Origin: Kineosporiaceae bacterium
GTDB lineage: Bacteria; Actinomycetota; Actinomycetes; Actinomycetales; Kineosporiaceae
Direction: 5' to 3'
Assembly (NCBI GenBank): GCA_016794595.1
Contig: JAEUJN010000004.1
Location: 1 to 64,000, forward strand
DNA length: 64,000 bases
The position numbers and the translations under genes are program-made. Position 1 is the stretch's first letter; every line of letters starts with the position of its first letter. The notes beneath the pieces were generated by a model. The model made no database searches. It saw only the letters and a program-made list of their open reading frames with translations, and was not told the origin of the DNA. Shown here in pieces: positions 7,006 through 63,832 of this stretch.

Positions 7006-7017
7006 AGGGGACCCCTC

Positions 7018-7863
7018 GTGACGACCACTGACACCACTGACACCGCTGACACCGCCTCCGGCGACCCGCTGGTGCTGCGCTCCACCGACGCGCGGGGCGT
7101 CGTCCGGATCACCCTGAACGCCGGTGCCCGGTACAACCCGCTCAGCCGGGCGATGATCGCCGCGTTGCGCGCGGCAATCGATGCCGTGGCCGCGGACGAC
7201 GCGGCCCGGGTGGTGGTGCTCTCGGGCGCCGGGCGGGGGTTCAGCGCGGGCCACGACCTGGCCGAGATGGGCGCCCATGCCGGGCCGGACGGCGGACCGG
7301 ACCAGAGGGCGTGGCAGCAGGCCCTGTTCACCGAGTGCAACGCGTTGATGGAGGCGCTGCCCGCCCTGGGCCAGCCGGTGATCGCCCAGGTGCACGGCAT
7401 CGCGACCGCCGCCGGCTGCCAGCTGGCCGCGATGTGCGATCTGGTGGTCGCGGCCGAGGGGGCCCGGTTCGCGCTCCCGGGGGTGAACGTGGGCATCTTC
7501 TGCTCGACCCCCGCGGTGGCGGTCGCCCGCAAGGTGGGACGCGCCCGGGCGATGGAGCTGCTGCTCACCGGGGCACCGATCGACGCGGCCACGGCGCTCG
7601 ACTGGGGGCTGGTCAACCGCGTGGTCGCCGCCGAGGAGCTCGAGGCCGCCGTTGACCAGCTGGCGGCGTCCATCGCTGCCCGTCCCGGCCCGGTGATCGT
7701 CGGCGGCAAGCGCGCCTTCTACACCCAGATCGAGCAGGGGCTCGGCGAGGCCTACGCGACGGCGGGGTGCGCGATGGTCGAGGACCTGTCCGGGATCGAC
7801 GCCCCCGAGGGCATCGCCGCCTTCCTCGCCAAGCGGGTGCCGATCTGGCCCTCGGCACGCTGA
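7018..7863 (+). CDS. Enoyl-CoA hydratase/isomerase-family protein lacking both catalytic glutamates
   Basis: This 281-residue crotonase-fold protein has an AGRGFSAGHDL oxyanion-hole segment and a GIATAAGCQLAAMCD core helix. In true enoyl-CoA hydratases, glutamates in GGGCELA and in the following 'PE' turn, 20 residues apart, activate water. Here those positions are Gln135 (CQLAAMCD) and Gly155 (ALPGVNVGIF). This matches the ECHDC3-like branch, so a standard hydratase reaction is unlikely. The GTG start follows GAAGGGGA. The N terminus is a short Thr-Asp repeat (TTTDTTDTADT). It lies 12 bp after the acyl-CoA synthetase and probably acts on the same acyl-CoA pool. Confidence 0.88.
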   Translation: MTTTDTTDTADTASGDPLVLRSTDARGVVRITLNAGARYNPLSRAMIAALRAAIDAVAADDAARVVVLSGAGRGFSAGHDLAEMGAHAGPDGGPDQRAWQQALFTECNALMEALPALGQPVIAQVHGIATAAGCQLAAMCDLVVAAEGARFALPGVNVGIFCSTPAVAVARKVGRARAMELLLTGAPIDAATALDWGLVNRVVAAEELEAAVDQLAASIAARPGPVIVGGKRAFYTQIEQGLGEAYATAGCAMVEDLSGIDAPEGIAAFLAKRVPIWPSAR

Positions 7864-7892
7864 CCTCCCGACCGCCCCCTCCCCACCTGCCA

Positions 7893-8001
7893 CCCAACCC
7901 GCTCATGCTCCGCTGCTGACGCCTCATGATCGGACAAATCGCCCACCCGGACTCTCCCCGCGGAGCATCGCCCGTCGGCCGCGGAGCATGAGCAGGTTGG
8001 G
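7893..8001. repeat. Long-arm inverted repeat downstream of crotonase gene
   Basis: The 21-nt arms at 7893-7913 and 7981-8001 are complementary with one mismatch (CCCAACC..GCTCATGCTCCGC). They enclose 67 nt that contain a further CGCGGAGCAT copy. It may act as a terminator or processing hairpin between the acyl-CoA operon and the nickel transporter operon. There is no T-run. Confidence 0.6.
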
Positions 8002-8027
8002 AGGGGTGAGCGTGGGGGTGGGGCTTA

Positions 8028-15273: not shown

Positions 15274-16620
15274 ATGAGCACGACCCGCACGGCCCCCGCC
15301 GGTCGTGCACCGTCGAGGTTCGGCCCTCGCCGGCGCGATCACGCACTCGTGGCCGCTCTGGCCGCCGCGGAGCTGCTGATCGCCTGGGACTGGCCGCGGG
15401 CCGCGCCGTGGACGGCGTCCGACCTGATCCCACCGGTGCTCACCATCGTGGGGTTCGCTCTGCTGCCGCGCCGCCACCAGCGACCGATCGAGGTCTTCGC
15501 GGCCGTCGTCCTGCTCTCGCTGGCAGGCAGTGCGATCCCGCTGCACCACCCCTTCGCGGTGATCCTGGTGGCGCTGTACGCGGTCGCGGCCAACCGCCCC
15601 CGTCGCCCGGCGATCGTCGCGCTGGTCACGACCTGGGCACTGTTCCTCCTCTCCTACCTCCTCTACCCGATTCCCGATCACCCGGTGCGCATCCGGTTGA
15701 CCAGCGCCCTGGCCAGCTGCCTGGTCGCCGGCATCCTCTGGGCGCTGGCCCTGCGCTTCGGCCAGCAGGCCCGGGCGCTGGCCGAGCACGACCGGCGGCG
15801 GACGGCGGCCATCGCCCAGGCCGTCGCCGCCGAACGGCTGCGACTGGCTCGCGAACTCCACGACATCGTGTCGCACACGGTGAGCATCATGGTCCTGCAG
15901 GCGGCGGGTGCCCGGCGCGTGCTGCACCGCGATCCGGCGCGGGCCGAGGAGGCCCTCGGGGTCGTCGAGGACCTGGGGCACGAGGCCATGGAGGAGTTGC
16001 GCCGGCTGCTCACCGTGCTGCGCACACCCGGGGAGCACGATCAGGACGGCGACCCGAGGGCACCCGGCCTGGACGAGCTCGCAGCCCTGCTGGAGCGGAC
16101 CTCCGCCGCCGGCGTGCACACCGTGCTCGAGGTCACCGGGACCCCGGGCCGCCTGGCACCGAGCGTCGAACTGACCGCCTTCCGGGTTGTCCAGGAGGCG
16201 CTGACCAACACCGTCAAACACGTCGGCCCCGGGACGACGGCCCGCGTGCGGCTGGCGTGGCGGACCGACCGATCCCCGCGGCGACTGGAGGTTCAGGTGA
16301 TCGACGAGGGGCCGCCGGCCGAACCCCTGGGTGGTCCGGGGGAGAGCCCGATGAAGGGCACGGACGACGGGTCGGACAGCCGATCGGACCATGGTTCGGC
16401 GACCAGGTGCGCTGCCGGGGGGCCGCTGTCGAACAGCCTGGGCCTGGTCGGGCTGTCCGAGCGGGTGACGGCGGTCGGCGGCCGGTTCGAGACCGGGCGG
16501 TCCGGTACCGGGTTCCGCGTCCTGGCGAGCCTTCCGGCGTCACCGGCGCCCGCTGCCCCGCAGATCAGCCTCACCGAGGCCGACCCGGTGGGCACCCGGC
16601 GATCGGACGGCGCCCGGTGA
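15274..16620 (+). CDS. NarL-type sensor histidine kinase
   Basis: The 448-residue membrane kinase has four to five predicted transmembrane helices in residues 25-165, with no large external domain. A HisKA_3 dimerisation domain follows, with phospho-acceptor His196 in LARELHDIVSHTVS. The HATPase domain begins VVQEALTNTVKHVGP (N box) and contains an interrupted G region: EGPPAEPLGGPGES, about 30 low-complexity residues, then NSLGLVGLSERV. The stop overlaps the response regulator start as GTGA. No stimulus can be inferred. Confidence 0.92.
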   Translation: MSTTRTAPAGRAPSRFGPRRRDHALVAALAAAELLIAWDWPRAAPWTASDLIPPVLTIVGFALLPRRHQRPIEVFAAVVLLSLAGSAIPLHHPFAVILVALYAVAANRPRRPAIVALVTTWALFLLSYLLYPIPDHPVRIRLTSALASCLVAGILWALALRFGQQARALAEHDRRRTAAIAQAVAAERLRLARELHDIVSHTVSIMVLQAAGARRVLHRDPARAEEALGVVEDLGHEAMEELRRLLTVLRTPGEHDQDGDPRAPGLDELAALLERTSAAGVHTVLEVTGTPGRLAPSVELTAFRVVQEALTNTVKHVGPGTTARVRLAWRTDRSPRRLEVQVIDEGPPAEPLGGPGESPMKGTDDGSDSRSDHGSATRCAAGGPLSNSLGLVGLSERVTAVGGRFETGRSGTGFRVLASLPASPAPAAPQISLTEADPVGTRRSDGAR

Positions 16621-17321
16621 GCGGGATCCGGGTCCTGATCGCCGACGACAGCACGCTGGTGCGGGCCGGGCTGGCGATGATCCTGGACGCCGAGCCGGAC
16701 CTCACCGTCGTGGGGGAGGCCGACGACGGTGGGTCCGCGGTCGAGCTCGCCCGCCGCCTGCACCCCGACGTGGTGCTGATGGACGTCCAGATGGCGCCGA
16801 TGGACGGCGTCGAGGCCACCCGCATCCTCACCCGCGACGCCTCCGCCGAGCAGCCGGACGCGCTGGTCCAGGTGCTGATCCTGACCGCCTTCCGGGTCGA
16901 CGAGCAGGTCTACCGGGCGCTGCGCGCGGGGGCCTCCGGGTTCCTGCTCAAGGACGCCGCCCCCCGCGAGCTGATCAGCGCCGTCCGGGCGATCGCGCGC
17001 GGTGACGGCTGGCTCGACCCGGCCGTGACCCGCAGCCTGATCACCGAGTTCGCCGATCGTCCCGAGCACGCCGGCAGCGGGACGACCTTCGAGTGCCTGA
17101 CCCCCCGTGAGCGCGAGGTGCTCGTGCTGGTGGCCCACGGGAAGTCCAATGCCGAGATCGCCGGCTGGCTGGGCCTGGGCGAGGCGACGGTCAAGACCCA
17201 CCTCGCCCGCATCCTGATGAAAGCGGGCCTGCGTGACCGCTCCCAGGCCATCGCGGCCGCCTACCAGAGTGGACTGGTCGCCCCGAACAGCCCGCCCCCG
17301 CCGCCGGCGGGTCGCCCCTGA
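16617..17321 (+). CDS. NarL/FixJ-family response regulator
   Basis: The 234-residue cognate regulator of the upstream kinase has a receiver domain with phospho-acceptor Asp56 in [13 protein letters not shown], the conserved Thr in LILTAF and Lys in FLLKDA. A LuxR-type HTH follows ([35 protein letters not shown]). The start lies in the 4-bp overlap. The C terminus is a proline-rich tail (PPPPPAG). Targets are unknown; the divergent ECF sigma gene is a candidate by position only. Confidence 0.93.
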
Positions 17322-17355
17322 TCCCCGCCCGCGGCCGGGCGTGAGAGGCTGGACC

Positions 17356-17787
17356 ATGCGCGTGCTGGTGATCAACGGGCCGAACCTGAACCTGCTCGGG
17401 ACCCGTGAACCGTCGGTGTACGGGGCGACGACCCTGGCCGACGTCGAGAAGCAGTTGCGCGAGCTGGCCACCGAGCTCGGCCTCGAGCTCGACGTCGTCC
17501 AGAGCAATCACGAGGGCGTCCTGGTCGACGCCATCCAGCAGGCCCGCACGGACGGCGTCCGGTACGTGATCATCAATCCCGGCGCCTACACCCACACCAG
17601 CGTGGCGATCCGGGACGCCTTCGCTGCCGTGGACATTCCCTTCGTCGAGGTGCACATCTCGAATGTCCATGCGCGCGAGGAGTTCCGGCACCACTCCTAC
17701 CTGTCCCCGATCGCCACCGGGGTGATCGCCGGGCTGGGCACCGAGGGCTACGCCCTCGCCCTGCGCTTCGTGCGATCCCAGCTCTGA
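17356..17787 (+). CDS. aroQ: Type II 3-dehydroquinate dehydratase
   Basis: The 143-residue enzyme converts 3-dehydroquinate to 3-dehydroshikimate in the shikimate pathway, or in quinate breakdown. Signature segments are [18 protein letters not shown] (with the flexible-loop Arg and active-site Tyr), [28 protein letters not shown] and [15 protein letters not shown]. The [16 protein letters not shown] motif carries the catalytic pocket residues. The length fits the dodecameric type II family. It is detached from other aro genes and sits 19 bp before an acyl-CoA dehydrogenase. Confidence 0.95.
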
Positions 17788-52274: not shown

Positions 52275-52315
52275 AACGTTCGGATCCAAATAAATCCTTG
52301 CTCCAGGAGGTCGTG

Positions 52316-53578
52316 ATGCAGCCGACGCCCGTCCCGCTCGACCAGGTGGATCTCGCCGATCTGGATGTCTTCGAGGGCAACCGGGCCTGGGGCATGTTCG
52401 ACACCTTGCGGCGCGAGGCACCGGTGCACTGGAACGAGGAGCACGACGGCGGTTCGGGCTTCTGGTCGATCACCAGGTACGACGACATCCAGGCGGTCGA
52501 CAAGGACCCGGAGAGCTTCACCTCGATGAAGTTCACCAACCTCGAGGAGCCACCCGAGGAGTTCCAGGACACCCGCCGGTCGATCCTCGAGACCGACGGC
52601 CCCCGCCACCAGGCCCTGCGCAAGCTGCTGATGCGTGACTTCAGCGCCGCCCAACTGCGCCGCTACGAGGACTTCCTGCGCGGGCTGGCCAAGGCCACCG
52701 TGGACAACGCTCTGCAGCAGGAGGAGTTCGACTTCGTCGACTCCATCGCCGCGGACTACCCGATGGCAGTGCTGGTTCGCCTGCTGGACACCCCGCCCGA
52801 GAAGACCCCACAACTGATCTCGTGGGGCAACGAGATCGTCGGGTTCTCCGACCCCGAGTACGCCCGGGTCCTGGTGAACTCCGAGGAGGCCAAGGCCTAC
52901 CGGCACCTGCCGTTCAGTTCGCCGGTCTCGCAGGAGATCTACGACTACGGACGCCAGTTGCGCGCCGAGCGCCTGGGCGGCACCGCGGACGACCTGGTGA
53001 GCAAGCTGGTCAACCGGATCCCCGAGGACGGGATCCCGTTGAGCGACCAGGACTTCGACAACTACTTCCTGCTGTTGGTGGTGGCCGGCAACGAGACCAC
53101 GCGGCAGGCGATGAGCCACTCGATGAAGGCGCTGATCGACAACCCCGAACAGCTGACCTGGTTCCTCGAGCACCCCGAGAAGGCGCAGGTCGCCGTCGAG
53201 GAACTGATCCGGTGGGCCTCGCCCGTCTACCACTTCCGCCGCACCGCGACCCGCGACGTGGAACTGCACGGCCGGCAGATCAAGGAAGGCGACAAGGTCG
53301 TCATGTGGTTCGCCTCCGGCAACCGGGACGAGTCCAAGTTCGCCGACCCGTACACCCTCGATCTGAGCCGATTCCCCAACGACCACATCACCTTCGGCAA
53401 GGGCCCGCACACCTGCATGGGGGCCAACCTGGCCCGGCTCGAGATCAAGATCCTGTTCGAGACCCTGCTGCCCCGGCTGGAGTCCATCGAGCAGGCCGGC
53501 GAGATCACGCGGGTCAGGAGCAACTTCGTGAACGGGATCAAGAAGTTCCCGGTCCGGGTGCGGGCGAAGCAGGTCTGA
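52316..53578 (+). CDS. Cytochrome P450
   Basis: The 420-residue soluble P450 has the I-helix oxygen-activation motif VVAGNETTRQAM (about residue 257), the K-helix ExxR in VEELIRWASPV and the heme-binding loop FGKGPHTCMGANLARLE with thiolate ligand Cys367. It catalyses monooxygenation of an unidentified substrate. The next gene, one base after the stop, encodes a PDR-type FMN/2Fe-2S reductase, a probable dedicated redox partner. This resembles a split version of self-sufficient CYP116B enzymes or the GcoA-GcoB pair. The ATG follows CAGGAGG. Confidence 0.95.
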   Translation: MQPTPVPLDQVDLADLDVFEGNRAWGMFDTLRREAPVHWNEEHDGGSGFWSITRYDDIQAVDKDPESFTSMKFTNLEEPPEEFQDTRRSILETDGPRHQALRKLLMRDFSAAQLRRYEDFLRGLAKATVDNALQQEEFDFVDSIAADYPMAVLVRLLDTPPEKTPQLISWGNEIVGFSDPEYARVLVNSEEAKAYRHLPFSSPVSQEIYDYGRQLRAERLGGTADDLVSKLVNRIPEDGIPLSDQDFDNYFLLLVVAGNETTRQAMSHSMKALIDNPEQLTWFLEHPEKAQVAVEELIRWASPVYHFRRTATRDVELHGRQIKEGDKVVMWFASGNRDESKFADPYTLDLSRFPNDHITFGKGPHTCMGANLARLEIKILFETLLPRLESIEQAGEITRVRSNFVNGIKKFPVRVRAKQV

Positions 53579-53579
53579 G

Positions 53580-54572
53580 ATGAGCGAGGGATCCACGATC
53601 TCCGGCACCCGGACCACGGTGCGTGAGCACGAGGGGGACCTGGTCGTCGAATCGGCCGAGGTGGTCGCCGAGGACGTCGTCGTGCTCACCCTGGTCGACC
53701 CGGACGGCGACTCCCTGCCACCGTGGACCCCGGGCGCCCATGTCGACCTGATCCTCACCGAGGATCTGATCCGGCAGTACTCACTGTGCGGCGACCCGTC
53801 CGACAGCCGGACCATCCGGGTCGCCGTCCTTCGCTCACCCGACTCACGTGGGGGCTCGGCGCTCGTCCACGACAGGCTGAGAACCGGTGCCACCGTGCGG
53901 GTCCGGGGGCCGCGCAACCACTTCCCGCTGATCGCCTCACCGCGCTACATCTTCATCGGTGGGGGCATCGGGATCACCCCGATCCTGCCGATGATCGCCG
54001 AGGCGGAGGCGAGCCGGGCCGACTGGCAGCTGTACTACGGCGGCCGCAGCCGGGCCTCCATGGCCTTTCTCGACGAGCTCACTCGCTACGGCGACAGGGT
54101 CACCCTGGTGCCGCAGGACGAACTGGGGCTGCTCGACCTGACCACGATTCTCGGTGACCCGCGCGCGGACACCCTGGTCTACTGCTGCGGCCCCGAGCCC
54201 CTGCTGGCCGCCGTCGAGGAGCGTTGCGCCACCGACTGGCCGGTGGCTGCCCTGCACCTGGAACGCTTCGCGGCCAAGGTGAGCCAGGCACCGGCCGGTG
54301 GTGAACGGTCGTTCGAACTCGTGCTGGCCGGCTCGGGCCTGACCCTGACCGTGCCGCCGGACAAGTCGGTCTTCCAGGTGATCGAGGAGGCCGGGGTCAG
54401 CGTGCTCGGCTCCTGCCACGAGGGCATCTGTGGCACCTGCGAGCAGGTCGTGCTCGACGGCGAGGTCGACCACCGCGACTCGGTGCTGAGTGAGTCCGAA
54501 CGGGCGGCCAACGACGCGATGATGGTGTGCGTCTCGCGCTGTTCCTCCGACCGCCTGACCCTGGACCTGTGA
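53580..54572 (+). CDS. PDR/VanB-family reductase (FMN, NAD, plant-type 2Fe-2S)
   Basis: The 330-residue phthalate-dioxygenase-reductase-like protein has an N-terminal flavin domain (VDLILTEDLIRQYSLCGDPSD) and an NAD domain (FIGGGIGITPILPMI, LVYCCGPEPLL). A C-terminal plant-type ferredoxin domain follows, with cysteines in SCHEGICGTCEQVV and CVSRC. It moves electrons from NADH to an oxygenase. It is one base after the P450 and 10 bp before the Rieske-like gene, so it could serve either. Since the Rieske-like partner has lost key ligands, the P450 is the likelier acceptor. Confidence 0.93.
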   Translation: MSEGSTISGTRTTVREHEGDLVVESAEVVAEDVVVLTLVDPDGDSLPPWTPGAHVDLILTEDLIRQYSLCGDPSDSRTIRVAVLRSPDSRGGSALVHDRLRTGATVRVRGPRNHFPLIASPRYIFIGGGIGITPILPMIAEAEASRADWQLYYGGRSRASMAFLDELTRYGDRVTLVPQDELGLLDLTTILGDPRADTLVYCCGPEPLLAAVEERCATDWPVAALHLERFAAKVSQAPAGGERSFELVLAGSGLTLTVPPDKSVFQVIEEAGVSVLGSCHEGICGTCEQVVLDGEVDHRDSVLSESERAANDAMMVCVSRCSSDRLTLDL

Positions 54573-54582
54573 GGAGGAACGG

Positions 54583-55665
54583 ATGCCACCGTTGACGTCG
54601 CCCTCCGCGCGGGGAACGAACCCGAGTTCGGCGGCCCTGCCGATCGACTGCTGGTACGCGCTGGCCGACAGTGCCTCCGTCGGGCGCGACCTGCTCGGAG
54701 TTCGCGCCCTGGACCGTCCGGTCCTGCTCTACCGCACCACCGACGGCCGGGCCGTGGCGCTCGAGGACCGCTGCGCGCACCGTGCCTACCCGCTCAGCCT
54801 GGGCCGGCTCGACGGTGACGTGGTGCGGTGCGGGCTGTGCGGGTTCGGCCACGCCCCGGACGGCGCCTGTGTCGCCGTCCCGAGCCAGCCGCAGGTGCCC
54901 CTCGGCGCCCGGGTGGCCGCGCTCCCGGTGGCCGAACGCGACGGCCTGGTCTGGGTCTGGCTCGGTGAGCCGGGTCGATCCGTACGCCACCGCGTCCCGG
55001 AGCTTCCCTGGCTCACCGGGGACGGCTGGGGCGTGGTGGGTGGGCAGCGTGAGGTCGACGCCGGCTACCTGGTGCTGCACGAGAACTTCGCCGACGTCAC
55101 CCAGGTGCCGTTCGTCGCCCCGGAGATCGCGCCGTCCGTGCTGGGGGGTCAGGCCCCCGACCTGACGGTCGAGGTCACCGAGACCACGGTCACCCTGCGC
55201 CGGACCTTCCCGCCCGCACCCTTGCCGGGCTGGCAGGCGAGCCTGGTCGGGGCCGCGGCAGGCGACGATTACGCCACGGCGCACGCGGGGTTCTTCCTGT
55301 CCCCGGCGGCGTGGGTCGACCACTGGGACGTCACCGGGCCGGACGGCAGCCGGGCGCGGCTGCGGTTCACCCAGCTCGTCACCCCGGTGGAGGCCGGGCG
55401 CAGCCGGGTGCTGTGGCGGGTCAGCCGTGACTTCGCGGTCGGGGACGCCTCCGCCGGCACACGCGTGGCCGGCCTGTTCGAGGAGTACTACGGCCGGGTC
55501 TTCACCGCCATGGAGACCGTCCAGGCGATCCTCGATCGGGACGGTCCTGGTCCGGAGGTCAACGTGTCCGCCGATGTCGCGGCGCTCAGGGTCCGAGAGA
55601 TCATCGCCGCGATGCTGGCCGGCCAGCGGCCGGTGCGAGCGGCCCAGCGCGCCGCGCACCCCTGA
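54583..55665 (+). CDS. Rieske oxygenase-like protein with altered iron ligands
   Basis: The 360-residue protein resembles VanA-type Rieske oxygenase alpha subunits. The first Rieske ligand pair is present: Cys64 and His66 in DRCAHRAYPLSLGRL. The second, normally CxxH (CGYHG), reads Cys83-Gly-Leu-Cys86 (RCGLCGFGH). The mononuclear iron motif, normally N-x2-D-x2-H-x4-H, reads NFADVTQVPFVA: Asp171 is kept, but the histidines are Gln174 and Ala179. I could not locate the third ligand with confidence. A canonical oxygenase reaction is therefore unlikely; a changed 2Fe-2S site or a non-catalytic role is possible. AGGAGGAACGG precedes the ATG. Confidence 0.85.
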   Translation: MPPLTSPSARGTNPSSAALPIDCWYALADSASVGRDLLGVRALDRPVLLYRTTDGRAVALEDRCAHRAYPLSLGRLDGDVVRCGLCGFGHAPDGACVAVPSQPQVPLGARVAALPVAERDGLVWVWLGEPGRSVRHRVPELPWLTGDGWGVVGGQREVDAGYLVLHENFADVTQVPFVAPEIAPSVLGGQAPDLTVEVTETTVTLRRTFPPAPLPGWQASLVGAAAGDDYATAHAGFFLSPAAWVDHWDVTGPDGSRARLRFTQLVTPVEAGRSRVLWRVSRDFAVGDASAGTRVAGLFEEYYGRVFTAMETVQAILDRDGPGPEVNVSADVAALRVREIIAAMLAGQRPVRAAQRAAHP

Positions 55666-55776: not shown

Positions 55777-56577
55777 GTGCCCGAACTCCAGGGGTTCGCA
55801 CCACCGTTCACCGCCAGCGGCCGCAGCGCCCTGATCCCGAACCCGCCGTGGTTCTACAGCGGTGACCTGCTGACAGTGGAGTACCGCACGGACGTCGAGC
55901 GGGTCCGGGCGATCCTGCCGGACGACGTCCAGCTCGCCGAGGAGGACCCCGGGGCGGTCGCGTTCATCTGGGCCGACTGGCAGTCCTGTTCCGAGGGCGG
56001 CGCGGAGCTGCTGGACCCGGCTCGCTCGCAGTACAAGGAGGCCTTCGCGGTCGTCCGCTGCCGGTACCGGGACACGACGTACTCGCGGTGCGTGTTGATC
56101 TGGGTGACAACGGATTTCGCCATCGCGCGGGGAGTCCACCAGGGCTATCCGAAGAAGCTGGGATCGATCCACCAGACCCGGCCGATGCCGTTCGGCCGCG
56201 GTGCGCCGCGGATCGAGGCAGGGGCCCGGTTCGGTGCCACCCTGGCCGCCTACGACCACCGGTTGGCCCAGGCGGTGATCACCCTGACCGAACCCAGCGA
56301 CACCAACGGATTCGTCAATGCCCTGCCGATGCTGCACCACCGCCAGGTCCGCCCGATCGAGCAGGGCGCGCAGGGGTGGGCCCTGGACGAGGTGCTCACC
56401 ATGCGGGGCGTCGGGTTCGAGGCCGGCCAGGCATGGAAGGCGGAGGCCTCGCTCGAGCTGTTCGACTCCCCGTGGGACGACGTCGCGTCCACCTTGCCGG
56501 TGCGCGAGGTCATCAGCGGCTACTACGTGCAAGTGGGCACCAGCTGGGACGGCGGAACCACCCTCGCCCACCGTTGA
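55777..56577 (+). CDS. Acetoacetate decarboxylase-family protein
   Basis: The 266-residue protein has the ADC fold markers ILPDDVQLAEEDPG, the active-site glutamate region YKEAFAVVRCRY, and the lysine pair Lys126-Lys127 in HQGYPKKLGSI. In ADC one of these lysines forms the Schiff base with a beta-keto acid. Family members also include aldolase/dehydratase-like enzymes. The active site looks intact, so it could process a keto product of the P450 pathway. GAGGAGA precedes the GTG start. It is the last gene of the operon. Confidence 0.88.
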   Translation: MPELQGFAPPFTASGRSALIPNPPWFYSGDLLTVEYRTDVERVRAILPDDVQLAEEDPGAVAFIWADWQSCSEGGAELLDPARSQYKEAFAVVRCRYRDTTYSRCVLIWVTTDFAIARGVHQGYPKKLGSIHQTRPMPFGRGAPRIEAGARFGATLAAYDHRLAQAVITLTEPSDTNGFVNALPMLHHRQVRPIEQGAQGWALDEVLTMRGVGFEAGQAWKAEASLELFDSPWDDVASTLPVREVISGYYVQVGTSWDGGTTLAHR

Positions 56578-56635: not shown

Positions 56636-57328
56636 TCAGCCGCTCCCGATGGCGTCCCGTGGGCCGCTCGCCGGTGCCGGGCCCGGTGCCGGGCCCGGGG
56701 CCTGGCGGGCCCGAGCCCGGGCCAGAGCCTCCTCGAGCATGACCAGGACGGCGTCGCGCACCGACAGGAAGCTGCGGGCGTCGAGCTCGACGATCGGCAC
56801 CTGAGGCCCGATCGCCAGGGCCCACCGGATGGTCTCCAGATCGTGCTGCGCCCGGCCGTCGAACCGGTTGACCCCGACCACGAACGGCAGACCGGCCTTC
56901 TCGAAGTAGTCCACGGCGGCGTAGCAGTCGTCCAGGCGGCGGTCGTCCACGAGCACCAGGGCACCCAAGGCGCCGTTCGCCAGGTCTTTCCACATGAACC
57001 CGAACCGGTCCTGGCCTGGGGTACCGAAGATGTAGAGCTTGATCCGCTCGTCGATGGTGATCCGGCCGAAGTCCATCGCCACCGTGGTGGTGGTCTTGGT
57101 CGGCACCAATACGTTGCTGTCGACGCCGGCGGCGACCGAGGTCATCTCGGCCTCGGTGGTCAGCGGGGCGATCTCGGAGATGGTGCCCACGGTGGTCGTC
57201 TTGCCCACGCCGAAACCACCGGCGACCAGGATCTTCACCGGAATCGGCGGGCGGGCTCGGGTGGCGGTCACCGTCTGCGGCGCCTCGCCGTCCTGCGCCA
57301 CGGCCTCAGCTGCGCTGTCGTAGGCCAT
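56636..57328 (-). CDS. cvnD: Conservon GTPase (CvnD-like, MglA/Ras-type)
   Basis: The 230-residue GTP/ATP-binding protein has the P-loop VAGGFGVGKTTTVGTISEI, the G3-type FGTPGQDRFGFMW and the specificity motif VGVNRFD. The C-terminal tail is Pro/Ala-rich. In streptomycetes CvnD associates with CvnA, B and C at the membrane in a heterotrimeric-G-protein-like signalling complex. The ATG (MAYDSAAEA) overlaps the DUF742 gene by 23 bp, typical of these operons. Confidence 0.92.
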   Translation of the reverse strand: MAYDSAAEAVAQDGEAPQTVTATRARPPIPVKILVAGGFGVGKTTTVGTISEIAPLTTEAEMTSVAAGVDSNVLVPTKTTTTVAMDFGRITIDERIKLYIFGTPGQDRFGFMWKDLANGALGALVLVDDRRLDDCYAAVDYFEKAGLPFVVGVNRFDGRAQHDLETIRWALAIGPQVPIVELDARSFLSVRDAVLVMLEEALARARARQAPGPAPGPAPASGPRDAIGSG

Positions 57329-57737
57329 CGATGACTCGCATGATCGTCTCCACATCGTCGGGGGTGTCCGCGTCCGAGGCGCCGGTCGACACCAGCCCCT
57401 GTTGGGTCAGGTCTCCGATGAGCACCCGGACGACGCCCAGGTGCAGGTCGAGGGTCGCGGCCACCTCGGCGACCGCGAGCGGCTCCTCGCAGGCCAGCAC
57501 GATGTCGCGGTACTCCAGCGCCAGGGTGGGCAGGGCGTCCCTTCCGGCCCGAGTGGCGACCACCTGGGCCTCGATCGCGATCGGGACGGCGGCGGTGGTT
57601 CGCCCCCGGGTGAGCAGGAAGGGTCGGACGGCGTGGGTCGAGCCGAGCGGGTCCACGGTCTCGTCATCCCGACCGTGCCCGCTCAGGAACGGGCGGACCA
57701 TCCCGGTGTCCCCGCCACGTCGGGGATCCTCACTCAT
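57306..57737 (-). CDS. cvnC: DUF742 protein (CvnC-like)
   Basis: The 143-residue protein has the DUF742 pattern VRPFLLTRGRTTA, LEYRDIVLACEEPLAVAEVA and LHLGVVRVLIGDL, a winged-helix-like core. It is the third component of the conservon and likely links the roadblock protein and the GTPase. It overlaps the roadblock gene by 4 bp (ATGA) and the GTPase gene by 23 bp. Confidence 0.92.
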   Translation of the reverse strand: MSEDPRRGGDTGMVRPFLSGHGRDDETVDPLGSTHAVRPFLLTRGRTTAAVPIAIEAQVVATRAGRDALPTLALEYRDIVLACEEPLAVAEVAATLDLHLGVVRVLIGDLTQQGLVSTGASDADTPDDVETIMRVIDGLRQRS

Positions 57738-58165
57738 CCGGCCACCGAGTTCTTGAGCTCGTTGATCAGGCGCGGGTTGAGGGTGCCGTTGATCCGGTTG
57801 ATGAACACGGCCATCTCGTAAGCCACCGTGGCCAGGGAGGCGTTGGTGTCGGCCACCGCACCCAGCAGGGCTCCTGCACCCATGGCCATGACCACGAGGA
57901 AGCCGCCCTCGGCATCGATGATCACCTTGTTGAGGGATCCGAGGCCGTAACTGATCCCGGCCCCCGCGGCCAGGCTCGCCATGCCCGACACGATGGCCGA
58001 CAGGCGATCACTGGTGGCCCGGTCGGCGTCCGCGGCCGTGGCCATCAGCAGACCGTCCGAGGAGACGGCGATGACGTCGACGACGCCCGCCGTCTCGCGG
58101 GCGAACTTCGCGAGCAGCCAGGTGAAGTCCTGGGCGGACTCGCTCAGCGCAGTGGTCTCGGTCAT
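57734..58165 (-). CDS. cvnB: Roadblock/LC7-domain protein (CvnB-like)
   Basis: The 143-residue protein is a single roadblock/LC7 domain (FTWLLAKFARETAGVVDVIA, VSSDGLLMATA, SAIVSGMASLA, GALLGAVADTNASLATVAYE). In related systems roadblock proteins act as GTPase-activating or scaffolding partners of the cognate GTPase. Coupled ATGA overlaps join it to the sensor gene upstream and the DUF742 gene downstream. Confidence 0.93.
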   Translation of the reverse strand: MTETTALSESAQDFTWLLAKFARETAGVVDVIAVSSDGLLMATAADADRATSDRLSAIVSGMASLAAGAGISYGLGSLNKVIIDAEGGFLVVMAMGAGALLGAVADTNASLATVAYEMAVFINRINGTLNPRLINELKNSVAG

Positions 58166-61101
58166 GGCAGTCCTCCAGGGTCTCCGGGGGTCATCCCGGG
58201 TCCGACGCCGTCATCCGGTTCGACTTCGGCCAGTGCACGCCCAGGTACCCGCCGGGGCGGCAGGGCGCCGCCGGATGGTCGGGGGTCCGACGGCGGCGAT
58301 CCCGACGGCTGTTCCGACGGCTGTTCCGACGGCGGCGGGTCCGAGAGTCCTTCGGGGCCAAGGGATTCGGCACCATCCCCGCCGGCCTCGATCCCACGTG
58401 CCACGCCCTCGCCGGTCAGGTCCTGGCCGAGCGGTCCGGTGAGCAACTGGTCCGCGAGCGCGCTGACCGCCTCACGCTGTTCCTCGCGGCGCCCCGCCGC
58501 CTCGCGCAGGGCCGCCCGAGCCGCCTCGGCGGCCCGGCGCTCCTCCGCGGGCGAGACGTGATGTGCGTGCCCGGCCAGATCCAGGGCTGCCCCCACCTCG
58601 TCGAGCGACGAGCGGACCGCGTCGGGGTCGTGCGCCCCGCCCCGCTGTGCCGGTTGTGGTGAGGCGTCCAGCCCCAGAGCCTCGAGCGCCGACCCGCGGA
58701 CCCGGCGGGTGATCCCGGCACGGACCCTCGTCTCGTCGGGGTGACTGTCCGACGGTGGTGGCGCGCTGGCCCGCGCGATCGCGCGCTCCAGGTCGTCGAC
58801 CTGTCGGCGGGCGGCCTCGGGATCCAGGCCCAGGCCGCGGGCCGGTGTGGGCGGGAGGGGACGGAGCTGGTCGACCTGGGGCAGCTGGGCGCCCGGGACC
58901 CGGCGACGGATGCCGCCAGGCCCCGCGGCCTCCACGACGCCGGCGGCATCCACTGCCCCTGCAGCATCGACGGTCCCCGCGGCATCCACTGCCCCGGCGG
59001 CATTGACGGCCTCCACGGCGCCCTCGCTCGTGGGAAGGGCCGGCGCGGGGAGCCTCTCGGCCGGCCAGTGGTCAGGGCGCAGGGCCGGCGGAGGCGGGGT
59101 GGCCGGTGGACTGCTCGACGCGGCCGGGCCCGAGGATCCGGGGGTGCCGGCCCGGCGAGCCGGCCGCTGGCCGCCCGAGACACGGGGATCCGCGGACCGA
59201 CGACCGGATGACGACAGAGCCCCGGAGGGCACCAGTGCCGAGGGAGGCAGGGTGATGTGCACGGTGATCCCGCGGTCGGGATTCGGTTCCAGCTGCACGT
59301 CGATGCCGTGCCGACGAGCGATCCGGCCGACCACGAACAGCCCGAGCACGTGGCTCGGCGCCAGGTCCAGGCGCTCGCGGCGACGCAACCGGTCGTTCTC
59401 CTGGATCAACCGATCGGACGGCATCCCCAGCCCCAGGTCGATCACCGCCAGTCGGCAGGCTCCCTGGGCGTCCAGCTCACCGGTCACCCGCACCGCCGTA
59501 CTGGGCGGGGAGAACAGCACGGCGTTCTCGATCACCTCGGCCAGCAACAGGAGCAGGTCACCCAGGACGCCCGGTGCGACCGCGATGTCGGGAACCTGGT
59601 CCAGCTGGACCCGGGCGTAGTCCTCGACCGACCCGAGCGAGCCCCGGACGGCGTCCACCAGAGTCACCGCCCGGCCGCCGCCGGCCACCTCGGAACCGCC
59701 GGCCAACACCACGAGGCTGGTGGCGTTGCGCCGAAGACGGGTGGACAGGTGGTCCAGCCGGTAGAGCGTGGCCAGGGTGTCCGCGTCCTCCTCTCGGCGC
59801 TCGAGAGTGTCGATCAGGGAGAGCTGGCGGCCGACCAGATTGGTCGTCCGACGGCCGATGCTGGAGAACATGGCAGCCACGTTGCGCCGGCTCACCACCT
59901 GCCGCTCGAGCAGGCGTGAGGCCGTGGTCTGCACCCGGTTGTACGCCTGAGCCAGCTCGCCGATCTCGTCCTGGGTGGTCACCTCGATCTCCGCCAGACG
60001 CACGGTGACGTCCTCGGTCGAGTCCTCGTCGCTGACCCGTTCCAGTTCGGCCTCGGTGAGGTCGGCCACCTCTCCGGCGGCACGGGTGAGTCGGCGCAGA
60101 GGTCCCGACACCGAACGCCCGACGATCACCGACAGGGCCAGCACGAGCGCCATCACCAGAGCCGAGGTGAGGGTGACCGCGAGCACGGTGACCTGCGCCC
60201 GTCGGGCGGCGGCCTGCGTTGCCACGACGATGGTCTGGGCGATCTCGCCCTGGGCCAGCTGGCGCAGCCCGGTCTGGGACTGGACGGCGGAGAACGCCTC
60301 CACCGTCAGGTGCCCGCCGACGTGCTCGGCGTGGTCGGCCTCCCTCTCGCCGGCCAGCTCAGCGGTGACCTCGGCGATCTGCTCCGAGGCCAGACTCTTT
60401 GTCGCTCGGTCGAACACCTCGGCGGCAGGCGCCGTGGCCACCCGGCGGAAGTCGATCGCGGCCTCGTCCGCGCGCACGCCGTAGTCAGCGGCTGCATCCA
60501 GCAGGGCCTGCCGGCGGGCATCGTCGGTGCTCGCCGTGGCCGCGAGCAGCAGCGCCCCACCCCGGCTGGCGGCCTCGTTCGAGCGCAGCAACGAATCCAG
60601 TGAGGCCAGGCCCCAGGCATCCTGAGCCGAGTCGGTGACCTGGCGCGAGAGAGCGCTCGCGGCGATCAGCCGGTCCACCAGGGACCCGAACCTGGAGATG
60701 ATCGATTCCGCGGTCAGGGACCGCGTGAGCAGCCGCGGTTCGGTGGCGCGGACCAACTCGTCCACCTGTGCCGTGGCCTCCGCCAGGTCGCCGGCCTGCG
60801 CCCCCGAGGGCCGGACCTCGGAGGCGAGCTCACGAACCAGCTGCAACTGGACGATCAAGCTGTTCGGGTCCACGGAGCTCGACGCCCGGTGAGCGACGGC
60901 CAGCAGCCGGGCCTCCTGCAACTCCTCGACCAGAATGGCGAGCTGACGCCCGGTGAGCGCGGTGCGCTCGGTGGCAGCCGAGGTCGAGGCCGCGGAGAGC
61001 CGCTCGGAGATCAGCGGCACGTAGAGCAGGACCACGACCACCAGGGGAATCGCGACCAGCAGGTTGAGCTTCGCCCCGACTCGCAGGCGGTTGAGGATCA
61101 C
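58162..61101 (-). CDS. cvnA: Conservon sensor histidine kinase-like protein (CvnA-like)
   Basis: The 979-residue membrane protein has one helix at the N terminus (LLVAIPLVVVVLLYVPL), a nitrate-sensor-like helical extracytoplasmic domain and a second helix near residue 315 (LTSALVMALVLALSVIVG). A HAMP domain, a degenerate dimerisation region (YRLDHLSTRLRRNATSLVVL) and an HATPase domain (LLAEVIENAVLFSPPSTAVR, GLFVVGRIARRHG) follow. There is no clear phospho-acceptor H box. The last 330 residues are low-complexity Pro/Ala-rich with a Val-Asp-Ala-Ala-Gly repeat. The GTG start overlaps the upstream sensor gene by 4 bp. Confidence 0.9.
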   Translation of the reverse strand: MILNRLRVGAKLNLLVAIPLVVVVLLYVPLISERLSAASTSAATERTALTGRQLAILVEELQEARLLAVAHRASSSVDPNSLIVQLQLVRELASEVRPSGAQAGDLAEATAQVDELVRATEPRLLTRSLTAESIISRFGSLVDRLIAASALSRQVTDSAQDAWGLASLDSLLRSNEAASRGGALLLAATASTDDARRQALLDAAADYGVRADEAAIDFRRVATAPAAEVFDRATKSLASEQIAEVTAELAGEREADHAEHVGGHLTVEAFSAVQSQTGLRQLAQGEIAQTIVVATQAAARRAQVTVLAVTLTSALVMALVLALSVIVGRSVSGPLRRLTRAAGEVADLTEAELERVSDEDSTEDVTVRLAEIEVTTQDEIGELAQAYNRVQTTASRLLERQVVSRRNVAAMFSSIGRRTTNLVGRQLSLIDTLERREEDADTLATLYRLDHLSTRLRRNATSLVVLAGGSEVAGGGRAVTLVDAVRGSLGSVEDYARVQLDQVPDIAVAPGVLGDLLLLLAEVIENAVLFSPPSTAVRVTGELDAQGACRLAVIDLGLGMPSDRLIQENDRLRRRERLDLAPSHVLGLFVVGRIARRHGIDVQLEPNPDRGITVHITLPPSALVPSGALSSSGRRSADPRVSGGQRPARRAGTPGSSGPAASSSPPATPPPPALRPDHWPAERLPAPALPTSEGAVEAVNAAGAVDAAGTVDAAGAVDAAGVVEAAGPGGIRRRVPGAQLPQVDQLRPLPPTPARGLGLDPEAARRQVDDLERAIARASAPPPSDSHPDETRVRAGITRRVRGSALEALGLDASPQPAQRGGAHDPDAVRSSLDEVGAALDLAGHAHHVSPAEERRAAEAARAALREAAGRREEQREAVSALADQLLTGPLGQDLTGEGVARGIEAGGDGAESLGPEGLSDPPPSEQPSEQPSGSPPSDPRPSGGALPPRRVPGRALAEVEPDDGVGPGMTPGDPGGLP

Positions 61102-62222
61102 CGGTCGTCCCCGACGCCCGCACCGACCAGGTCGGCAACGGCAGGGTCCGGCCCTGCACCGGCGACGCGAGTGCCCTCTGGGCGCTGCGGCGTCCGGCGC
61201 CGGGCCCACCACCACCCTGCCCCGAGCGTCAGGACGAGCCCTAGGCCGATGGCGGTGACGGTGGCGACCAGTCGGCGCTGCCCGGCGATGGCGTCGGCGC
61301 GAGTGACCAGCAGGGCATCCAGCTCGGTCAGCGCCACCGCCTCGAACGCCAGGGCCGCCTCGCGGACCTCTGCGCGCTGGGCGCGCACCTCGGCGGCGGG
61401 GCGCTCGGTGATCGCCACGCCGACCTCGGAGGACGGCGGGGAGAATCCGGTGACCGTGTCCCGCAACCGGTCCAGATCGCTGAGCAGGCCTGGTCCCAGC
61501 GTGCGGCTCCGGGTCGCCCCGATGCTCTTGCGCAGACCGTCGTCGAGGGCCGTGACGTCCGCGCGGACCCTGGTGAAGGCGACGGCCGCGACCAACTGGT
61601 CCGACGCAGACTCCTGCTCGTCCCGGTCGCCCGAGCCCGCCTGGGCCAGCGCGGTCATCGCGCCGGCCCGGGTGGAGGCCACCAGCAACCCGGGGATGCG
61701 CAGCAGGGTCGCGTCCATGACGTAGTAGGCGTCGAGTTCGGGATCCAGGATCAGGTTGGAGGTGTCACCCACCCGACCGATGAGCGCGAGCTCGAGATCG
61801 ATGACGACGGAGTAGGCGTCCATCGCCGCCCGGCCACGAGGAGTGGCGGTCGCCAGGGTGTCCAGGCGAGCTGCGAGATCGGTCCAGCGAACCGTCGTCC
61901 CGAGGACCTCGCCGAGCCGGCTGTCCACCTCCCCGACGTCCTTGATCGCGGCGCGCACGGCATCGCTGTCAACCCGGCCACCCTGGGCCGCGACCATCTG
62001 GGCGTCGGTCGTGACGGCGAGCAGCCGGGTCAGGGGCCGCAGGTAGGTCACACCGTCGCGCTCACGCGCGGTGAACGCCAGATCAGCCCCCGTGCTGTTC
62101 CACAAGGCGGTCAGCGCCATGCCGAGCGGGACGAGCAGCAGGAGGGCTGCTGCAGCGGCGAGCCAGCGGCCCAGCCTGTCATGCAGGCCGCGGGGGCCGT
62201 GCGGGCTCTCAGTAGGGGGCAC
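61098..62222 (-). CDS. Membrane sensor with helical ligand-binding domain, no output domain
   Basis: The 374-residue protein has an N-terminal transmembrane helix (AAAALLLLVPLGMALTAL), about 270 residues of extracytoplasmic helical bundle and a second helix (VATVTAIGLGLVLTLGAGWWW). A short Arg-rich cytoplasmic tail follows. The bundle contains NLILDPELDAYYVMDATLL, a motif seen in sensor domains of chemoreceptors and GGDEF proteins. It lacks HAMP, kinase or cyclase domains. Its stop overlaps the sensor kinase start, making it a fifth gene and the first of the conservon operon. It probably forms a receptor complex with CvnA. Confidence 0.8.
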   Translation of the reverse strand: MPPTESPHGPRGLHDRLGRWLAAAAALLLLVPLGMALTALWNSTGADLAFTARERDGVTYLRPLTRLLAVTTDAQMVAAQGGRVDSDAVRAAIKDVGEVDSRLGEVLGTTVRWTDLAARLDTLATATPRGRAAMDAYSVVIDLELALIGRVGDTSNLILDPELDAYYVMDATLLRIPGLLVASTRAGAMTALAQAGSGDRDEQESASDQLVAAVAFTRVRADVTALDDGLRKSIGATRSRTLGPGLLSDLDRLRDTVTGFSPPSSEVGVAITERPAAEVRAQRAEVREAALAFEAVALTELDALLVTRADAIAGQRRLVATVTAIGLGLVLTLGAGWWWARRRTPQRPEGTRVAGAGPDPAVADLVGAGVGDDR

Positions 62223-62476: not shown

Positions 62477-63832
62477 TCAGAGGTGATACGCGTACTCGCG
62501 GAATTCCCAATCGGTGATGTAGCGCGAGAAACGCTCGACCTCGTTGCGCTTGTAGGTCAGGAAGGCCTCCACGAAGAACTCGCCGAGCACCTCGCCGAGC
62601 TCCTTGTCGGCCTCCAGTGCGTCCAGCGCCTCCGGCAGCGACTGCGGGAGCATCGGGGCCGCGCTCGGGTCGTAGCCGTACCCCTCCAGTGGCGCGGTCG
62701 GCTCGAGCTGGTCACGCACCCCCAGGTACACCGCAGCACCGACCGCCGCCATCGCGAGATACGGGTTGGCGGTCGCATCGCCCAGGCGCACCTCCATCCG
62801 GGACGCCGAGCCACGCTCCGGCGGGATGCGCACCATCGCGGAGCGATTGTCCAGACCCCAGTCGATCAGCCAGGGAGCCAGGGTGTCGGGCCCGAACCGC
62901 TTGTAGGAGTTGATGGTCGGGTTGAGGATCGCGGCCAGCGCCGGGGCGTGGGCCAGCACGCCGGCGATCGCCCAGCGGCCGGTGTCGGACAGGCCGTGCT
63001 CGCCCTCGGGATCGCCGAACACGTTGGCTCCGCTCTGATCCACCAACGAGACGTGCAGGTGGAACCCGCTACCGCCCTCGTCATTGAAGGGCTTGGCCAT
63101 GAAGGTGGCCTGCAGGCCCTCGTGGCGGGCGATCTCCTGGACGGCGGACTTCATCCGGAACGCCCGGTCGGCGGCGTCGACCATCTCGGAATGGTTGAGG
63201 TTGATCTCGAACTGACCCGGGCAGAACTCGTGATTGGCCGCGGTCACCTGCAGCTCGGCGTCCCGCAGGTAGCGCAACATGGTCAGCAGGGTCCCGCGAG
63301 GGTCTCCCTTGCGTCCCACGACGTACACGTTGCCGGGCTCATCGGCATAGCGGCGCCACCCGGCCGCCGAGCCCTCGTCCTGCTCGAGTAGGTAGAACTC
63401 CAGCTCCGGGCCGATCACCGCACGGAGCCCGAGGGTTTCGAGCCGCGCAGCCACCTGGCGCGCCACCTGCCGCGGGCCCTCCGGCGCAGGGCTCCCGTCG
63501 TGCAGGTGGGTGTCGGCCACGCACCAGGCGGCACCGGGCTCCCACGGCAGGGGGGACAGCGTGGCGAGGTCGGGCACCGCCTTGATGTCGGGCAGCCCGG
63601 ACTCGAGTCCACCGCTCACCGGCACCACGTCACCGACCGGCGAGGTGTGGAACACCGCACGGCAGAAGGCGATTCCGTGGCCCATCGCGCTGCCCAGCTC
63701 CTCGAGCAGCACGTCCCGTCCACGGTCCACCCCGATCAGATCGGAGTAGGACACCCGGACCACGTCGACGTTCCGCGCCCTGAGGGCATCGACGACTCCG
63801 GCGATGTCAGTGACGGGAACGTCGATGTTCAT
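62477..63832 (-). CDS. Glutamine synthetase-family gamma-glutamylamine ligase (PuuA/GlnA3-like)
   Basis: The 451-residue GS-fold enzyme has the catalytic motifs GPELEFYLLEQ, ANHEFCPGQFEINLNHS, FMAKPFNDEGGSGFHLHVS, NSYKRFGP and RMEVRLGDATANPYL. The Asp-Gly-Ser motif that helps bind ammonium in GlnA is absent; the corresponding stretch reads GIAFCRAVFHTSPVGDVV, as in PuuA and Streptomyces GlnA3/GlnA4. This points to ligation of glutamate to an amine (polyamine, ethanolamine or similar), not to ammonia assimilation. GAGGAGAG precedes the ATG. No other amine-catabolic gene is adjacent in the window. Confidence 0.9.
   Translation of the reverse strand: MNIDVPVTDIAGVVDALRARNVDVVRVSYSDLIGVDRGRDVLLEELGSAMGHGIAFCRAVFHTSPVGDVVPVSGGLESGLPDIKAVPDLATLSPLPWEPGAAWCVADTHLHDGSPAPEGPRQVARQVAARLETLGLRAVIGPELEFYLLEQDEGSAAGWRRYADEPGNVYVVGRKGDPRGTLLTMLRYLRDAELQVTAANHEFCPGQFEINLNHSEMVDAADRAFRMKSAVQEIARHEGLQATFMAKPFNDEGGSGFHLHVSLVDQSGANVFGDPEGEHGLSDTGRWAIAGVLAHAPALAAILNPTINSYKRFGPDTLAPWLIDWGLDNRSAMVRIPPERGSASRMEVRLGDATANPYLAMAAVGAAVYLGVRDQLEPTAPLEGYGYDPSAAPMLPQSLPEALDALEADKELGEVLGEFFVEAFLTYKRNEVERFSRYITDWEFREYAYHL

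Follow-up and report, generated by a model that had tools for sequence, protein, structure and literature searches.

A conserved protein of Rieske oxygenase fold, predicted to lack the usual mononuclear iron site, encoded beside a cytochrome P450 and its reductase

What is left for a Rieske oxygenase to do once both of its metal sites have changed, and why should its gene stand beside those of another oxygenase system? The question is raised by a gene in the 64,000-nucleotide stretch of Kineosporiaceae DNA analysed here (the window), where genes for a cytochrome P450, a reductase, a Rieske-fold protein and an acetoacetate-decarboxylase-like (ADC-like) protein follow one another in that order (Table 1). 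The first three are closely packed, with gaps of 1 and 10 bases, the reductase frame starting 1 base past the end of the P450 frame.

Table 1. Features of the locus, with positions in the window
Feature	Position	Strand	Basis
Cytochrome P450, with haem-Cys loop FGKGPHTCMG and AGNETT	52298..53578	+	Pfam p450, motifs
PDR/VanB-type reductase (flavin, NAD, C-terminal [2Fe-2S])	53580..54572	+	Pfam FAD_binding_6, NAD_binding_1, Fer2
Pseudo-Rieske oxygenase, VanA/dicamba-monooxygenase fold, 360 aa, no 2-His-1-Asp site	54583..55665	+	Pfam, AlphaFold, fold match
First cluster loop, Cys64-Ala-His66 (C-x-H)	54772..54780	+	Sequence; invariant in 12/12 CxxC rows
Second cluster loop, Cys83-Gly-Leu-Cys86, C-x2-C for C-x2-H	54829..54840	+	C86 in 12/12 CxxC rows
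Former iron-site helix, D171-V-T-Q174-V-P-F-V-A179, Gln174 and Ala179 for His	55093..55119	+	Sequence
Tyr302-Tyr303...Val306, region of the triad Asp	55486..55500	+	Sequence, row comparison
Acetoacetate-decarboxylase-superfamily protein, MppR-like	55777..56577	+	Pfam ADC 174 bits; 4jm3 MppR 148 bits
Glutamine-synthetase-like ligase, same catabolic set	62477..63832	-	Homologues near the trio in other loci

The Rieske-fold gene is an open frame with an ATG start, and its translation contains EDRCAHRAYP, further on VVRCGLCGFGHAPDGAC, and also HENFADVTQVPFVAPEI. The product has the two domains that define its family, a Rieske domain (PF00355, 52.5 bits against a cut-off of 20.3) and a VanA_C-type catalytic domain (PF19112, 85.6 bits against 23.5). 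An AlphaFold monomer model computed with 55 sequences as input has a mean pLDDT of 92.6 and a pTM of 0.89; its nearest solved fold among the matches listed is dicamba monooxygenase (3gke_A; Z 38.7, rmsd 1.9, 333 aligned), guaiacol O-demethylase 7qwt scores Z 36.1, and the best 50 matches listed in each of two fold searches, one of them with Foldseek, were ordinary Rieske oxygenases. Going by this model, the product has the fold of an entire oxygenase alpha subunit in which both metal sites have changed.

An earlier note on this DNA had read a cysteine in place of the second Rieske histidine and had found the iron-site histidines to be absent, and the translation bears out both readings. The C-x-H...C-x2-H ligand set is broken by Cys86, and the 2-His-1-carboxylate iron site by Gln174, Ala179 and a replacement that the note did not mention, Val306 at the third triad position. 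Judged from these residues, the usual iron site is impossible in this protein. Asp171 is invariant in 55 of 55 aligned rows, and we take it to be the bridging aspartate between the cluster and the iron site of the next subunit; VanA-type Rieske oxygenases are trimers with inter-subunit electron transfer. The window protein shares with VanA-type enzymes such as dicamba monooxygenase (DdmC) and 7qwt the whole fold, the first-loop C-x-H, Asp171 and a PDR/VanB-type reductase next door, but differs in having CxxC where they have CxxH, in the replacement of every one of the three iron-site residues, in Trp244, Asp246, Tyr302 and Tyr303 instead of other residues, and in a P450 in the operon. Its sequence marks it as a descendant of VanA-type enzymes that fails two defining features of the family.

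To place these changes among relatives, we drew on samples of genomes (relatives, order, class, genus and family) and one pattern-based scan, with E limits of 1e-3 to 1e-80 in the genome searches, and the frequencies given here are not census figures. Relatives are uncommon: for example, counting canonical-type rows as well, 24 of 394 genomes in the class sample had a match at E 1e-60, and the pattern-based scan of a species-genome collection returned seven close relatives and one remote one. Matches were present in 525 plasmid records, all below 60% identity, the first of the best 25 listed being at 38.8%. Two duplicates (L068 and L069, of L032 and L031) and three sequences shorter than 260 aa (L002, L010 and L050) were left out of all counts; L034 has a masked run, and L037 ends with its contig.

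Twelve distinct proteins, including the window's, form what we call the CxxC set. In all 12, Cys64, His66, Cys83 and Cys86 place three cysteines and one histidine at the four ligand positions, and the facial triad is absent: position 174 is Gln in 11 and Lys in one, 179 is Ala in 11 and Val in one, and 306 is Val in 10 of the 11 rows that reach it (Leu in L036; the remaining row is cut). The conservation that the earlier note had proposed to check by aligning homologues is thus present at Cys86 and, with one exception each, at 174 and 179. The members are 65% identical on average (range 54-92), and since 115 of 360 columns are invariant in the set, the constancy of the four ligands carries modest weight by itself. 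The stronger point, in terms of sequence, is the contrast with a sister set of 11 proteins that we call cluster-less. The complete cluster ligand set is found in none of them: position 64 is Asp in six and Cys in five, 83 is Ser in seven, Ala in three and Asp in one, and 86 is Ser in six, Thr in four and His in one. His66 and His174 are present in all 11, position 179 is His in none, and 306 is Val in every row and so never Asp. With these substitutions, the cluster-less proteins would bind no cluster.

A more distant set of 14 proteins, clade II, keeps CxH...CxxH in 13 rows (L076 has Ser83). Position 174 is Asn in 10, Asp in two, His in one and Tyr in one, 179 is His in 13 and Tyr in one, and the full triad survives in a single row, L073. 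Position 86 is His in all 14 clade II rows and in 27 of 27 canonical rows, against Cys in the CxxC set, and the third triad position is Asp throughout these same two groups. In L074, L075, L077 and L112-L119, all of clade II, the first iron-site histidine has become Asn or Asp with the other histidine and the triad aspartate kept, so that an iron site may persist there in changed form. Four residues are common to the CxxC and cluster-less sets, Trp244 and Asp246 in 23 of 23 rows and Tyr302 and Tyr303 in the 22 of 22 rows reaching them; they are absent from the canonical rows, and clade II also differs. That they are common to both sets hints at a role without metal. Residues 302-303, being next to 306, are likely to surround the former iron site, and we assume that 244-246 do so as well, or line the pocket. 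Elsewhere in the protein, Cys23 (54649-54651) is found in 12/12 CxxC, 14/14 clade II, 2/11 cluster-less and 1/27 canonical rows.

A tree of 64 rows (IQ-TREE), whose columns include the ligand positions themselves, separates 27 canonical from 37 P450-linked rows by one branch (support 100/98). The CxxC set of 12 is a single group (100/100), and CxxC and cluster-less rows together form a group of 23 (100/99). L109 does not group with the remaining ten cluster-less rows, a separation that is weakly supported, and its placement is unsure; long branches lead to L049, L087, L085, L109 and L073. Mapped on this tree, the ligand and triad patterns imply that the iron site was altered differently on different branches, and that the cluster was re-liganded on one branch and its ligands lost on another. 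The order of these events we infer.

Gene neighbourhoods tie the Rieske-fold protein to the P450 system. A reductase of the phthalate-dioxygenase-reductase (PDR) type adjoins its gene in 36 of 36 P450-linked neighbourhoods read, adjacent and on the same strand in 12/12 of the CxxC set (directly upstream), 11/11 of the cluster-less set and 13/13 of clade II, and a P450 is present in 33 of the 36. Within the CxxC set the P450 lies upstream of the reductase in 11 of 12, and the contig of the twelfth (L033) stops within the reductase. In cluster-less genomes a P450 falls within the stretch read in 9 of 11, sometimes on the opposite strand and up to about 3 kb off; all 11 genomes have a P450 with 58-66% identity to that of the window, the two without one nearby carrying it on another contig (63% and 58% identical). 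All 13 clade II neighbourhoods read (from 14 rows) contain a P450 in the stretch, only 31-35% identical to the window's and, in L094 and L099, downstream of the Rieske-fold gene; in L119, outside these 13, one lies about 1 kb upstream. Canonical relatives, of which we read 13 neighbourhoods for 27 rows, have a reductase in 11 (none in L055 and L100) and a P450 at E 1e-4 in none of the 13. The Rieske-fold protein thus travels with the P450-reductase pair even where the P450 and the rest of the cluster differ. Conservation and linkage are firm, both being read, like the triad loss, the cysteine and the dN/dS values below, directly from sequence. In L051, a second reductase-P450 pair (15567-17687; 47% and 26% identity) lies about 5 kb from the reductase of the cluster-less gene.

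The reductase itself appears to be the partner of the P450. Its closest PDB matches are the reductase portions of two P450 chains, 6kbh and 6laa, followed by phthalate dioxygenase reductase 2pia. In 10 of 32 loci a single open frame encodes both P450 and reductase, namely in L036 of the CxxC set (5777-8017) and in nine of clade II (L095, L098 and L131-L137, with P450 halves 32-34% identical to the window's). Across the loci aligned, the reductase retains its flavin, NAD and [2Fe-2S] motifs and the P450 its haem cysteine (the L033 contig is truncated ahead of the flavin motif), and the four cysteines of the reductase's own [2Fe-2S] domain are kept in the 46 loci aligned. Linkage, fusion and motifs together indicate that the reductase belongs with the P450. 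The arrangement resembles CYP116B-type self-sufficient P450s (P450 RhF, OhpA), whose reductase is of the same kind (6kbh, 6laa); by gene order and sequence, the window too has a PDR-type reductase as P450 partner. It differs from them in that P450 and reductase are separate genes in the window, in that the best PDB match of the P450 is CYP125MRCA 8vxi (371 bits), followed by CYP124 (272 bits), and in the accompanying Rieske-fold protein. CYP116B enzymes are reported to work without any additional partner (PMC8449657).

On balance we favour reading the Rieske-fold product as a conserved pseudo-oxygenase and an accessory component of a P450/PDR-reductase monooxygenase, an accessory role for which gene linkage is the argument. 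A VanA-type Rieske oxygenase would have lost its oxygen-activating mononuclear iron and been retained as an accessory component; the P450 would perform the oxygen chemistry, with electrons supplied by the adjacent reductase along the path NAD(P)H, flavin, [2Fe-2S]. The window's clade would have kept the [2Fe-2S] cluster, with 3Cys-1His ligation and a potential below that of a normal Rieske centre, and in the sister lineages the cluster ligands would have been lost and the protein retained. Loss of the ligands in the sisters while the protein stayed implies a common role that does not depend on the cluster, most likely that of a scaffold, a substrate-binding or a coupling subunit, with electron relay as an optional extra in the window's clade. 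The bolder proposal, that this is a natural, lineage-fixed 3Cys-1His Rieske centre in a dead oxygenase turned dedicated P450 partner (electron carrier or coupling subunit), is one we put forward tentatively, as possible rather than probable. In all of this we infer metal content, potential, protein contacts and substrate.

A laboratory counterpart bears on the cluster. In ARF, an archaeal Rieske ferredoxin of S. solfataricus, changing the second Rieske histidine (H64C) gave a [2Fe-2S] cluster that is described as low-potential, and a triple mutant (H64C with the first-loop changes H44I and K45C) held a mononuclear Fe(Cys)4 site (PMC2946596). The window protein keeps the first-loop C-x-H and has only the second histidine changed to cysteine, so a [2Fe-2S] cluster of lowered potential is to be expected; by analogy, Cys86 most likely gives a low-potential 3Cys-1His [2Fe-2S] cluster. 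ARF H64C shares the change at the second Rieske histidine with the first left in place, but it is a laboratory ferredoxin mutant, and the window's change occurs in nature and has become fixed in a clade of proteins derived from oxygenases. Actinobacterial ferredoxins that partner P450s vary a cluster-loop residue, and their potentials, reported as -340 to +230 mV within one species, make tuning of a cluster potential plausible (PMC6237146). The earlier note had called a 3Cys-1His [2Fe-2S] centre conceivable, which the engineered change now renders plausible by analogy. Its comparison with mitoNEET holds for the ligand set, which would be the same in kind, but fails for fold and motif. The mitoNEET/CDGSH family is marked by a CDGSH-type motif; by eye, no CDG(S/A/T)H occurs in the translation, the fold is that of a Rieske oxygenase, and we rejected membership. 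The note's interpretation is partly supported. It did not bring up the tie of the lineage to a P450 and its reductase, nor the sister proteins of the same gene cluster; as these have no full set of ligands, the cysteine need not mean a working redox centre.

The re-liganded cluster might instead be an obligatory carrier from reductase to P450, its potential lowered by the His-to-Cys change to suit the haem. Invariance of the four ligands across the 12 CxxC rows speaks for such a relay, and in clade II the Rieske ligands kept in 13 of 14 rows, against an iron site intact in 1 of 14, are what would be expected if electron transfer was kept. The low-potential H64C cluster (PMC2946596) and the large potential differences among ferredoxins (PMC6237146) point the same way. 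Against this, the reductase and P450 remain in the sister set, where 0 of 11 proteins have a complete ligand set. The reductase moreover brings a [2Fe-2S] domain of its own, and 10 of 32 loci have it fused to the P450. We consider the relay unlikely and rejected the term obligatory electron carrier as too strong, with sisters lacking a complete ligand set sitting beside the same reductase and P450. The fusions also count against the accessory reading that we favour, in that they suggest a P450 in need of no intermediate carrier. Another possibility is a structural metal, zinc or a single iron held by a zinc-ribbon-like pair of loops with no redox role. CxH with CxxC is a usual metal-binding set, which counts in its favour. 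Rieske cluster loops have been compared with those of rubredoxin and zinc ribbons, and the triple ARF mutant did bind iron as Fe(Cys)4; that mutant, however, also carried H44I and K45C, and a C-x-H with H64C alone, the arrangement seen in the window, gave [2Fe-2S] (PMC2946596). We consider a structural metal quite unlikely.

Could the protein still be an enzyme, with Trp244, Asp246, Tyr302 and Tyr303 carrying a non-iron activity in the pathway? Their presence in 23/23 and 22/22 rows indicates constraint there without the usual metal. Yet clade II, which also has the reductase and P450, lacks the four residues, the pocket position of 244 and 246 is assumed, the best 50 matches listed per fold search are ordinary Rieske oxygenases, and a literature text search found no paper, all of which makes it very unlikely. 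To decay or a sequencing error in one genome we give virtually no credence: beyond the missing residues nothing speaks for it, and the gene has an open frame of 360 aa and a confident full-length predicted fold. By the method of Nei and Gojobori, dN/dS is below 1 in 15 of 15 pairs, at 0.07-0.43 in the CxxC set (four pairs), 0.12-0.30 in the cluster-less set (five pairs), 0.10-0.24 in clade II (three pairs) and 0.17-0.18 in the canonical set (three pairs), with dS rough given GC-rich third positions. All four sets look constrained in these comparisons, the cluster-less one included. The earlier note had argued against decay by frameshift, a view in keeping with these ratios and with a pattern common to all 12 distinct clade members. 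It had also held that homologues of the same synteny keeping CxxH and H-x4-H would make this copy a local mutation or sequencing error; among the relatives only L073, in the more distant clade II, is of that kind, and we rejected such an origin for a pattern found in 12 of 12. Compared with the window's copies, the Rieske-fold proteins of CxxC and cluster-less loci are 39-69% identical, the P450s 57-82% and the reductases 58-82%. This faster change could mark a weakly constrained passenger, and counts against the accessory reading.

If the pseudo-oxygenase does act as a P450 helper, it would add a third component to a P450-PDR reductase arrangement whose fused members reportedly need no partner, and one oxygenase family would have been domesticated as the helper of another. 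Within the P450-linked clade, several degrees of oxygenase erosion coexist in present-day operons: an intact form (1 of 14 in clade II), an altered iron site with the cluster ligands kept, a re-liganded cluster and the loss of cluster ligands. The CxxC set may be a naturally occurring match for the 3Cys-1His Rieske mutant made in the laboratory, and lends itself to asking what Rieske oxygenases can do without oxygen chemistry. Pfam domain models label such proteins as ordinary Rieske/VanA_C oxygenases, and the chemistry is probably that of the neighbouring P450. A literature search that left subscription journals mostly uncovered found no description of a P450, a PDR reductase and a dead Rieske oxygenase together, and absence from print is unproven.

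The surrounding genes suggest what the system may act on. The contig, within the window and past its end, also carries genes for C26 peptidase-like, aldehyde dehydrogenase, LigB-type and FAH-type proteins and permeases. The nearest NCBIfam models of the dehydrogenase, LigB-type and FAH-type proteins are HpaE, HpaD and HpaG, all below cut-off; the ADC-like protein is likewise below the cut-off of the MppR model, and the ligase, nearest to glutamine and gamma-glutamylputrescine synthetases, falls below the cut-offs for GlnA, GS III and gamma-glutamylputrescine synthetase. Pfam assigned Gln-synt_C, Aldedh, LigB and Peptidase_C26 domains to the homologues scanned in other loci. Among 9 distinct CxxC loci, 7 have a homologue of the ligase and 6 one of the LigB-type protein; among 11 cluster-less loci the figures are 10 and 8, and several of the loci without one are on short contigs. 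ADC, LigB and FAH homologues occur in none of 13 clade II loci. From this gene content, the cluster probably serves an aromatic compound, perhaps amine-bearing, that ends in meta ring cleavage, and we read the pathway as glutamylation, oxidation and meta cleavage of that aromatic, perhaps an amine. The aniline system has a ligase, an amidotransferase, an oxygenase and a reductase, a gene set that the one here may resemble. Between the ADC-like and glutamine-synthetase-like genes sits a block on the minus strand (56636-61215), which we take to be conservon-like, with ATP_bind_1 and Robl_LC7 genes (Pfam) and then a large ORF that looks kinase-like by eye. Beyond the window, near the end of its contig, lies a transposase-like ORF (L120:14008-15087, minus strand), IS30-like by eye.
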